Shown here: positions 18,208-22,249 of the stretch, in pieces
Layout: each line of letters opens with the position of its first letter
Numbering within the stretch: position 1 is the first letter of the stretch
Assembly: GCA_030834415.1 (NCBI GenBank)
Contig: JAURFH010000007.1
Coordinates: 1-40,517 of the forward strand
From: Verrucomicrobiota bacterium
Lineage (GTDB): Bacteria > Verrucomicrobiota > Verrucomicrobiia > Limisphaerales > JAEYXS01
Length of the DNA: 40,517 nt
Reading direction: 5' to 3'
Translations under genes and position numbers: made by a program
Notes under the pieces: generated by a model
Seen by the model: only the letters and a program-made list of their open reading frames with translations
Database searches by the model: none
What the model was told of the DNA's origin: nothing

Positions 18208-19128
18208 TTAGTCCTTCGGGTTCAACGTCCATCCACCCGAGACCACCGTCAGGGATGTGTTCGTATTGCCGAGCAGCGAATAACGGCTCACTTGCTCTAC
18301 ATGACCGTCGATCATGAGATAAGTGAACATCTCTTTGCCGTGGACAGAAGCCGTATCCACTGTTGATGGCAGATGATCGTTTGGTGTCGGGATGGTGGGC
18401 AGGGTTTCGGCACTGGCCCAGTTGCACGAAGCGTTGTGGTACTCCGTGACCTGAACTGTCTCGGTGGCTGCCAAGATGGCCCCTTCACGCAGGGCAGGGA
18501 TATTCTTGGGGACTTTCAAGAAGTTCGAGGGGGGACCCGAATTGTCCGCACCAGCGGGCCAGCCGTTGGTGGTGGTGGAACCGATCTGCCAAGATGCCCA
18601 TGTCCAGTGCAGTCCGGAACCGGTCCGCGCGTTTGGATTCACGGGCGTATTGGTGGTGGACATGACGTACTTCGGGGGGGCGTAACTGCGGCGGATGCCA
18701 CTGGGCGAGAGTCCGACCCAGCCGGTAGTCAGCGGAATCTTATCCGCCGGGCAGAGAAGTATCTTGGGAAACTTGTTCCAAGTCTTCAAACCGTGACTGG
18801 ACATCTCCGTGATGGTTTGGGAGCCGCCGATGTAACCATCGATCAGGTCATCCCAAGCGAAACCGCCCGATTTATAGTGCACGGAGCCGTAAGGCATTTT
18901 GTCCGAGTTATCACTCTGATAGATTTTGTAGCCCGTGCCGACCTGCTTGAGGTTGTTCACGCACTGAGTGGACAAGGCTTTCTGTTTGGCCTTGGCAAGC
19001 GCTGGCAAGAGCATGCCGGCCAGAATGGCGATAATCGCGATGACGACCAGCAGTTCGATCAACGTGAATGCCTTGACGGCGGGCTTTTCGAGCATGCCGG
19101 TCAGGCGGTAGAGGAATTTAGATTTCAT
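18208..19128 (-). CDS. Type II secretion/pilin-like prepilin (DUF1559-type)
   Basis: A 306-residue prepilin with a basic leader and the class III cleavage/methylation motif '[18 protein letters not shown]': cleavage is expected between Ala and Phe, with Glu at +5. The hydrophobic helix is followed by the conserved '[19 protein letters not shown]' segment, and the C-terminus carries '[15 protein letters not shown]', an H-x10-DG variant of the H-X9-DG motif of PVC-group pseudopilins. Family members assemble as minor or major pseudopilins in the inner membrane. ATG 19128 is chosen over the adjacent TTG at 19131. It follows the lipoprotein gene by 17 nt, shares its sigma-54 promoter and ends at an intrinsic terminator. 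Many paralogues are usual in this phylum, so a specific role cannot be given. Confidence 0.9.
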
Positions 19129-19145
19129 CAATGATAGCCTTTTTC

Positions 19146-19583
19146 TCAGAGGTTTTCCAACCGTACTTCAAGTTTGGAGAGGTCGATGACGTACTTCTTG
19201 CCAGCCGGGGCCACAGGGACCTTGGCCAGGATTTGCCGATCCACCAGCGGCTGGAAGTCGCTGATGGCTGGTGCGCTGGAGTCACCATAGAAAAGCTGGA
19301 GCGCATAGGTGAGCTTCTGCTCTTCGTTCAGGTGGCTGACGCCATTATCCAATGCCGAACCGGTGTTGGCCACTGGTTGAGGCACAGCCGCTGACATGGA
19401 AGTGCCGGGAGGAGCCATGACAGGCATGGCCGCCGGGGGCAGGGTTTGAACTCCGCTGGTGGCATCAAATGCAGCCTGAGGAGCCGGTGCGGCAGGGGTT
19501 GCCGTGAATGGTGCTTCTTCTTCAGATGAGCAGGCGGTCAGCACCAAGGCCACCATGCCGAGCAGTTTCAGTGAGGTTTTCAT
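19146..19583 (-). CDS. Small lipoprotein in the prepilin operon
   Basis: A 145-residue protein with a lipoprotein signal peptide ([18 protein letters not shown]; lipobox LTAC, lipidated Cys near 18). A low-complexity Ala/Pro/Met-rich linker (about 25-85) follows, then a compact C-terminal domain ('[35 protein letters not shown]' by its parts, and '[16 protein letters not shown]'). No enzyme motif is seen. The C-terminal half resembles the small unknown proteins that sit next to DUF1559 prepilins in Verrucomicrobia. The stop lies 17 nt before the prepilin ATG, so the two are co-transcribed; it may anchor or plug the pseudopilus at the membrane (inference). Confidence 0.72.
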
Positions 19584-19660
19584 AGCGTGATCAAATTGCG
19601 ACCACGAGGTTACGACTTTTTTTGGTCACGGCCTTTGCGACCGCAACCAGTTGTGGCTCT

Positions 19661-19676
19661 AGCAAGGGTGATGCCA
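19661..19676 (-). promoter_or_regulatory. Sigma-54 (-24/-12) promoter of the lipoprotein-prepilin operon
   Basis: Read on the minus strand the site is TGGCATCACCCTTGCT, matching the consensus TGGCAC-N5-TTGC(A/T) with correct GG-to-GC spacing. Transcription would begin near 19650, leaving a leader of about 67 nt before ATG 19583. Sigma-54 control of pilin genes is well established in other bacteria. The palindrome TAGGGGCCCCTA starts only 7 bp upstream. Confidence 0.75.
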
Positions 19677-19738
19677 GCTACGTAGGGGCCCCTATTTCTG
19701 GCTGCTTCTGTACGGTTTTATTCAAGGAAGTGGCTTCG

Positions 19739-19799
19739 CGACAGGCTTGAGCTGCGCAAAGCTGAACACTTTGAAAGAAATTGATGCTTCGACCTGTCG
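19739..19799. repeat. Inverted repeat pair between two sigma-54 promoters (candidate enhancer)
   Basis: CGACAGG (19739-19745) and its complement CCTGTCG (19793-19799) are 47 bp apart, each near a GCTTCG word (19733, 19786). They lie 63-117 bp upstream of the leftward -24 element and 44-98 bp upstream of the rightward one, within the range used by sigma-54 enhancer-binding proteins. Regulator unknown. Confidence 0.4.
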
Positions 19800-19842
19800 G
19801 ATTTCAATCAGCGGACAAAAATCAAAATGTGCGCTTTGCAAT

Positions 19843-19858
19843 TGGCAGCAAACTTGCA
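19843..19858 (+). promoter_or_regulatory. Sigma-54 (-24/-12) promoter facing tex
   Basis: TGGCAGCAAACTTGCA fits the -24/-12 consensus with correct spacing. The start site would be near 19869. No plus-strand gene lies downstream, only the hairpin at 19887-19926 followed by six T, so the predicted product is a short RNA. Confidence 0.6.
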
Positions 19859-19868
19859 TCGCAGAGTG

Positions 19869-19935
19869 TTGTCAGAAGAAACAGAAACGCAGGATGGGCG
19901 GAGGGGAGATGCCGCGCATCCTGCGTATATTTTTT
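19869..19935 (+). ncRNA. Candidate sigma-54-dependent small RNA
   Basis: The transcript predicted from the 19843-19858 promoter is about 66 nt: an unpaired A/G-rich 5' part of about 18 nt, then a 10-bp stem with a 20-nt purine-rich loop (GGCGGAGGGGAGATGCC core) and a T-tail. The exposed GGAGGGGAG loop resembles a Shine-Dalgarno sequence. No known RNA family is recognised. Existence depends entirely on the promoter being real. Confidence 0.3.
19887..19935 (+). terminator. Intrinsic terminator hairpin, possibly bidirectional
   Basis: ACGCAGGATG (19887-19896) pairs perfectly with CATCCTGCGT (19917-19926) and is followed on the plus strand by ATATTTTTT (to 19935). On the minus strand it lies 25 nt after the tex stop with a weaker T-rich tail, so it may also end tex transcripts. 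The T-tract is clearly better on the plus strand. Confidence 0.65.
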
Positions 19936-19951
19936 GAGGATAGTATGCTGG

Positions 19952-22249
19952 TCAGTTTTTCTGACCACGCTGACTTGCTTTGTCCAAGGCGGCGGAAAAC
20001 CAGTCGTTTCCTTTTGAAAACGAGGGTTTTTGCGGTGGACTTTGTTGGCCTTGTGTCCGTGGGGCAGCAGGTGAAGTGCGGTTGTTCTGACTAGCACCAC
20101 CGATCTCCGGATTTGCTTTCATGGAGAGGGCGATGCGTTTGCGCGCGAGATCCACTTCGGTCACGGTCACCATCACCTTCTGTTGCACCTTCACGATCTC
20201 GGCCGGGTCTTTCACGAATTTATCGGCGAGCTGGCTGACATGCACCAAGCCGTCTTGATGTACTCCAATGTCCACAAATGCCCCGAAAGCAGTCACATTT
20301 GTCACCAAGCCGGGCAGTTTCATGCCGGGGCGCAAGTCTTCCATCTTCTCCACGCCCTCTTGAAAGGCGAAGACTTCGAACTGCTGACGTGGATCCCGTC
20401 CCGGCTTCGCCAGCTCATCCATGATGTCTTTCAAGGTCGGAATGCCGACCATCTCCGTGACATACTTCTCAAGCTTGATGCGGGATCGCAGGGCGCTGTC
20501 GCGCATGAGTGCGTTCACGTCGGCCTGGGCATCCTTGGCCATGGCATCGACGATGGGATAACTCTCGGGATGCACGGCGCTGGCATCCAAGGGATGCGCG
20601 CCATCACGGACGCGCAAGAAACCAGCGGCCTGTTCGAACGACTTCGCTCCGAGACGCGGCACCTTTTGCAGATCCGCACGTGATTTGAAGGGACCATGCT
20701 CATTGCGATAAGCTACGATGCTGGCGGCGAGGGCAGGGCCAAGACCGGAGACGTAGCTGAGCAATTGTTTGCTGGCGGTGTTCAGTTCTACGCCAACACC
20801 GTTCACGCAACTCATCACCACATCATCAAGACCGCGCTTCAAGGCGGGTTGATCCACGTCGTGTTGATATTGGCCCACGCCGATGGATTTCGGGTCCAGC
20901 TTCACCAATTCGGCCAAGGGGTCCATGAGCCGGCGACCGATGGAGACGGAGCCGCGCACGGTCACGTCTTCATTCGGGAACTCTTCCCGCGCGACATCGG
21001 AAGCGGAGTAGATAGAGGCGCCGCTTTCATTCACCATCACGATGGGGATGGATGCGGGCAGGCCGAGCTTGCGGATGAAGGTTTCGGTTTCACGACCAGC
21101 GGTGCCGTTGCCGATGGCGATGGCCTCGATCTGGTATTGTTTCACCAAGGCGAGTATGGCTGTGGCCGCTTCGCGGATCTGATTAGAAGAGGCGGCCGTG
21201 GGATAGATGACATCGTGATGGAGCAACTTGCCCTGGCGGTCTAGCACCACGACTTTGCAACCAGTGCGGAAGCCGGGATCGATGGCGAGGGTGTTCCTGC
21301 GACCGAGCGGGGCGGCCAGCAGCAGCTCGCGGAGGTTCTCGGCGAAGACGCGGATGGCTTCGATGTCGGCCTTCTTCTTTGACTCGATGCGCATCTCCGC
21401 TTCGATGGCGAAACCGAGCAGGCGCTTGTAGCACTCTTGCACGGCGAGGCGGATTTGTTCGCCTGCGGGTTTGCCGGGGGCTTTCACGAAGAGCGGCTCG
21501 AGCAGGTTCAACGCTTCTTCGTCGGGCGGATTGATACGGACGATGAGAAAACCCTCCGTCTCACCGCGGCGGATGGCGAGCAGTCGATGGCTGGGAATGG
21601 TGGCGATGGGCTCCCTCCAGTCGAAGTAATCTTTGAACTTGGCCCCGGCCTCCTGCTTGTCAGACATGACCTTGGAGCGGATGGTGGCCTGGCTTTGATA
21701 GAGCGCGCGCAGTTTGGCACGGGCTTCGGAATCATCACTGATGCGTTCAGCGATAATATCCCGGGCACCTGCCAGTGCGGCGGCGACGTCTTTGATCTCT
21801 TTGGCGGGATCGATGAATGGTTCGGCGGCCTTGAGCGGGTCGAGGGTGGATTGCTCATTGAACAACTGGTCGGCGAGTGGTTCCAGACCGGCTTCCTTGG
21901 CGATGGTGGCACGGGTGCGGCGCTTGGGGCGGTAGGGCAGGTAGATGTCTTCCAGGGAGCTCAGCGTCTCGGCGCGGAGCACGGCCGCCTTGAGATCATC
22001 AGAGAGGAGGTTGCGTTCGGTGAGGGACTTAAGGATGGCGTCGCGGCGTTGGTCGAGTTCCACAAGGCTGTTCATGCGCTCGCGGATGTTCATGATGGCG
22101 ACTTCATCCAATGAACCGGTGGCTTCCTTGCGATAGCGGGAGATGAAAGGGACGGTGCCGCCTTCAGCCAGCAGTTTGGCGGTGGCGGCGACTTGGCGCG
22201 GCTGGAGCTTCAGCTCGGACGCGATCTGGGCAACATACTTCTCGTTCAT
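19952..22249 (-). CDS. tex: Tex family S1 RNA-binding transcription accessory protein
   Basis: A 765-residue cytoplasmic protein typical of Tex in length and order: an N-terminal helical domain ('GGTVPFISRYRKEATGSLDE'), a YqgF/RNase-H-like domain ('LAIDPGFRTGCKVVVLD', about 325-430), a helix-hairpin-helix region ('LLSYVSGLGPALAASIV' and 'KVPRLGAKSFEQAAGFLR', about 495-560), and a C-terminal S1 domain ('GLVTNVTAFGAFVDIGVHQDGLVHVSQL', about 640-715 in parts). Tex binds nucleic acid and affects transcription and ribosome-associated events. A Gln/Pro/Ser-rich tail of about 45 residues follows S1. ATG 22249 gives the standard MNEKYVAQIA-type start. Confidence 0.96.
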   Translation of the reverse strand: MNEKYVAQIASELKLQPRQVAATAKLLAEGGTVPFISRYRKEATGSLDEVAIMNIRERMNSLVELDQRRDAILKSLTERNLLSDDLKAAVLRAETLSSLEDIYLPYRPKRRTRATIAKEAGLEPLADQLFNEQSTLDPLKAAEPFIDPAKEIKDVAAALAGARDIIAERISDDSEARAKLRALYQSQATIRSKVMSDKQEAGAKFKDYFDWREPIATIPSHRLLAIRRGETEGFLIVRINPPDEEALNLLEPLFVKAPGKPAGEQIRLAVQECYKRLLGFAIEAEMRIESKKKADIEAIRVFAENLRELLLAAPLGRRNTLAIDPGFRTGCKVVVLDRQGKLLHHDVIYPTAASSNQIREAATAILALVKQYQIEAIAIGNGTAGRETETFIRKLGLPASIPIVMVNESGASIYSASDVAREEFPNEDVTVRGSVSIGRRLMDPLAELVKLDPKSIGVGQYQHDVDQPALKRGLDDVVMSCVNGVGVELNTASKQLLSYVSGLGPALAASIVAYRNEHGPFKSRADLQKVPRLGAKSFEQAAGFLRVRDGAHPLDASAVHPESYPIVDAMAKDAQADVNALMRDSALRSRIKLEKYVTEMVGIPTLKDIMDELAKPGRDPRQQFEVFAFQEGVEKMEDLRPGMKLPGLVTNVTAFGAFVDIGVHQDGLVHVSQLADKFVKDPAEIVKVQQKVMVTVTEVDLARKRIALSMKANPEIGGASQNNRTSPAAPRTQGQQSPPQKPSFSKGNDWFSAALDKASQRGQKN

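Follow-up and report, generated by a model that had tools for sequence, protein, structure and literature searches.

In a Verrucomicrobiota genome, two sigma-54-like 16-mers lie in the 368 bp that separate tex from a two-gene lipoprotein-prepilin operon, and raise the question of whether both are working promoters governed by a single enhancer-binding protein, as an earlier note had proposed, or whether one of them is a promoter and the other a look-alike. The analysis covered the window, that is, the whole 40,517-nt stretch of DNA to which the coordinates below refer, and all conservation was assessed through one comparison, between this genome and that of its sister species G002. The tex, lipoprotein and prepilin genes are all encoded on the minus strand, with 14 bp between the lipoprotein and prepilin genes, and their order is the same in G002. 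The features of the region are as follows.

18208 to 19131, minus strand: prepilin-like gene, second gene of the operon, with an N_methyl match, a weak DUF1559 match and an IV_pilin_GFxxxE domain.
19146 to 19583, minus strand: lipoprotein-like gene, first gene of the operon, an ORF of 145 aa with a lipobox-like LTACSS, 76% identical in G002.
19584 to 19650, minus strand: predicted 67-nt leader with two hairpins, conserved and folding in both species (z -3.8 and -2.6).
19661 to 19676, minus strand: very probable sigma-54 (-24/-12) promoter of the lipoprotein-prepilin operon, TGGCATCACCCTTGCT, with the top score in the window, kept in G002; predicted start 19650.
19747 to 19776, minus strand: candidate enhancer (upstream activating sequence) at ~-97 to -126, 24/30 identical in G002 (local E 4e-4).
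19843 to 19858, plus strand: second, divergent sigma-54-like site, TGGCAGCAAACTTGCA, with the second-best score in the window and no counterpart in G002; predicted start 19869.
19879 to 19936, bidirectional: tex terminator hairpin, with a T-run also on the plus strand.
19952 to 22249, minus strand: tex, upstream of the promoter region, with Tex domains, 89% identical in G002.

A check of the window sequence placed both 16-mers at these positions (the minus site reading from 19676 to 19661), in divergent orientation and with 166 bp between them, and TGGCA-N6-TTGCW fits each. Their sequence, strand, spacing, divergence and separation agree with the earlier description, as do the predicted starts at 19650 and 19869, counted from the C of the -12 element. 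When the window was scored with an approximate sigma-54 matrix modelled on the published consensus, the two sites ranked first and second, with scores of 15.2 and 14.9, followed by a third site at 12.6. Across the 4.5-Mb genome, the strict pattern TGGCA-N6-TTGCW is matched 28 times, and spacers of 2-10 together give 256 matches, equivalent to 28.5 per other spacer length. Hence, the strict pattern shows no genome-wide enrichment over other spacer lengths, which implies that most of its matches arise by chance. At the density of 28 matches, arithmetic gives an expectation of ~0.002 matches per intergenic region of this length and, for the genome as a whole, of ~0.03 pairs lying no more than 200 bp apart. 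If the minus site is taken as real, the probability that the region contains another strict match by chance is likewise ~0.002, for a finding that was selected from many windows. The presence of two strict matches in one intergenic region is therefore unusual, and to that extent the argument that they are unlikely by chance stands, but selection over many windows makes it weaker than had been claimed.

The genome encodes a complete RpoN, with its three domains, and six full sigma-54 enhancer-binding proteins, of which five carry a receiver domain and one a PAS domain, so that the sigma factor and the AAA+ activators expected of a host of sigma-54 promoters are both present. The placement of correct-spacing matches was compared with that of wrong-spacing controls, using simple ORF-based gene calling, with the controls drawn from the contigs listed first. 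Correct-spacing matches were intergenic in 10 of 28 cases, as opposed to 1 of 42 controls, and seven of the 28 were located <=200 bp upstream of a co-oriented gene, a placement seen in none of the 42 controls (7/28 vs 0/42, Fisher p = 0.001). In G002, strict sites precede flgB and flgF. The presence of RpoN and its activators, the placement bias and the flgB and flgF sites indicate that classical sigma-54 promoters are very probably used in this genus, and that a minority of the strict matches are real.

Strict sigma-54-like sites were also noted before a Ser/Thr protein kinase gene in this genome (L004:1501-1516), before an OsmY-like gene in G002 (L087:1501-1516) and 51 bp upstream of dnaK (TGGCACCTTCGTTGCT, L008:1087-1102), the G002 ortholog of which (locus L165) presents TGGCACCCCGTCTGCT at the aligned place. 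In both genomes, conserved repeats (GGTGTGACAC, GTGNGACA and TGTCTCAC) lie ~100-150 bp further up from dnaK and look like activator sites, and control of dnaK by sigma-54 is possible on the basis of these sequences.

The minus site presents GG and GC with 10 bp between them in a TGGCA-N6-TTGCW context, as is characteristic of sigma-54 promoters, and departs from the CG consensus at positions 6/7. It is located 93 bp before the ATG of a co-oriented gene, and its G002 counterpart, TGGCATCACGGTTGCT, sits at the corresponding position, 89 bp ahead of the ATG there. Fourteen of the 16 bases are kept in this one relative, all -24/-12 bases are intact, and both changes (CC to GG) fall in the spacer. 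The local alignment extending from just upstream of the site through the ATG is identical at 93 of 120 positions. Since the site is embedded in a 120-bp stretch with 78% identity, retention of its ten key bases is weak evidence when taken alone (0.78^10 ~0.08).

Further upstream, identity with G002 is 45% at 19690-19745, 24/30 at 19747-19776 and 48% beyond. The conserved block contains an imperfect palindrome, TTGNGCWGCNCAA (19747-19759 here; L049:5650-5662 in the G002 comparison), and in each genome 91 bp separate the centre of this palindrome (~-103) from the -12 C, without a gap in the alignment of the interval. A constant distance maintained across diverged DNA is the pattern expected of a looping enhancer-promoter pair, and a position of ~-103 is typical for an enhancer. 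The conserved block with its palindrome is thus a candidate activator site in the -80 to -150 range. The palindrome has two other copies in each genome, roughly the number expected by chance; no sigma-54-like site was found beside these copies, and the palindrome was therefore discarded as a motif common to sigma-54 promoters. Compensatory change within it was also considered and discarded, as the copies in the two genomes are imperfect at the identical pair of positions.

With RpoN and activators in the genome, the -24/-12 bases kept and the upstream block at constant spacing, the proposal that the minus site drives the lipoprotein-prepilin operon has good support, and 19661-19676 (minus strand) very probably constitutes a genuine sigma-54 promoter for these genes. 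The reading that we favour, and regard as probable, is that the gap harbors one genuine sigma-54 promoter, with the conserved upstream block as its enhancer, and that the plus 16-mer is in all likelihood a chance occurrence or a recent, lineage-specific one. The site, the genes, the sigma factor, the activators, the conservation and the spacing are observed; binding, activation, the choice of activator and the start site are inferred. RpoN-RNA polymerase would sit closed at 19661-19676, and one of the six enhancer-binding proteins, positioned on 19747-19776 ~100 bp upstream, would loop over and open the promoter. Transcription from near 19650 would then proceed through the structured 67-nt leader, leading to expression of the lipoprotein and the prepilin. 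The second leader hairpin ends just before the start codon, and the hairpins may tune translation; a search of the leader and of the plus transcript for known RNA families returned no Rfam match. The sequence GGTCGCAA is common to both conserved leader hairpins (19584-19650, minus strand).

Among 320 genomes of the order, the operon was found only in this genome and in G002, with no orthologs outside the genus at E <= 1e-40; two contig scans likewise revealed no operon orthologs outside the genus. G001, the third member of the genus, is 76% complete and presents neither the operon nor a full tex match. The prepilin-like gene is 80% identical in G002 outside its N-terminus. The lipoprotein family, which has no Pfam or NCBIfam match, comprises 6 matches in this genome (G000) and 12 in G002 (loci L020-L048). 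A sigma-54 regulon encompassing all lipoprotein-prepilin pairs was considered and rejected, as only 1 of 27 paralogous genes presents a site scoring at least 10 within 200 bp upstream (L032 in G002, TGGCATGGGGGGTGCT at -57).

The pilA promoter of Pseudomonas aeruginosa is transcribed by sigma-54 with PilR. The operon promoter resembles it in that a sigma-54 promoter stands before a pilin-type gene and has an activator site, here a candidate, upstream of it, and departs from it in that the first gene encodes a lipoprotein and the prepilin is DUF1559-like. An envelope- or surface-related target is also in line with a survey of sigma-54 as a controller of the bacterial exterior (PMC3162934), in the text of which the words pilus, prepilin and Verrucomicrobi are absent.

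The alternative that survives best is that both sites are working divergent sigma-54 promoters, served by one activator at the shared central site, with a plus RNA that is ~70 nt long or antisense to the tex 3' end. The two sites outscore every other position in the window, on the plus strand a strong hairpin accompanied by a T-run stands just downstream, and the palindrome centre is roughly equidistant from the predicted starts (103 bp from the minus and 116 bp from the plus start), making a shared enhancer geometrically possible. Comparable layouts exist, such as the divergent sigma-54 operons orp1 and orp2 of Desulfovibrio vulgaris, with the activator DVU2106 and IHF (PMC3897727), in which two sigma-54 promoters face outward with palindromic activator sites between them, where the present region has a candidate palindrome. 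Both orp promoters, however, have been shown by experiment to drive operons, whereas the plus site here faces no gene and is not conserved. G002 keeps the minus site and the central block without the plus site: no counterpart was found in its region, where the best divergent-strand score is 5.8, inside the leader, and none exceeds 2.0 elsewhere. Conservation of the -24/-12 bases in relatives, on which the earlier note had made its proposal depend, consequently holds in this one relative for the minus site and fails for the plus site, so that the two promoters are not conserved together. Nor is there a transcription unit downstream of each, since the plus site faces the tex 3' end, as the earlier note had observed, with no plausible plus-strand gene beyond it, and a transcript from 19869 would reach the tex terminator and end after ~70 nt, consisting almost only of terminator. 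The claim that one enhancer-binding protein controls both promoters is therefore not supported, though such control might exist as a lineage-specific feature, and a working pair with a shared activator is unlikely.

Were the plus site to make an RNA, its model would be sigma-54-dependent small RNA genes, such as glmY/glmZ and similar (PMC3844500), but the product here would be ~70 nt, mostly tex terminator, and is not conserved. That the site is an active lineage-specific sigma-54 promoter, yielding a ~70-nt RNA with the tex terminator borrowed and co-activated with the prepilin operon from the central enhancer, appears marginally less likely than the pair just discussed. Function of any kind for the plus site is somewhat easier to envisage, while still improbable, and the most probable view of the 16-mer is that it matches by chance or arose recently in this lineage, without a conserved product.

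It is about equally doubtful that both matches are due to chance, with the operon on an ordinary promoter and the conserved stretch maintained on account of the leader or of a different regulator. The strict pattern is indeed no commoner than those with other spacers, and the leader is conserved and structured, so nearby conservation need not mean sigma-54. Nonetheless, correct-spacing matches are enriched at promoter positions over controls, the site, the upstream block and the distance between them are conserved together, and no sigma-70-like promoter was found in the region. Small-RNA promoters and non-productive RpoN binding sites have both been discussed for Salmonella, where RpoN sites outnumber transcripts and interference and promoter search are considered (PMC3844500), but for the plus site to bind RpoN-polymerase without useful RNA, as a decoy or as a block to read-through at the tex end, is very unlikely, given its lack of conservation in G002.

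The minus promoter fits known kinds, namely sigma-54 control of pilin genes as in pilA, and the finding is mostly ordinary; no paper was found on the RpoN regulon of this bacterial group. Comparison with a single relative separates the conserved promoter from the adjacent look-alike. The divergent half, if true, would amount to a very small RNA gene that relies on a terminator borrowed from tex, and the region as a whole offers a lipoprotein-pilin operon whose sigma-54 promoter and enhancer can be put to the test.
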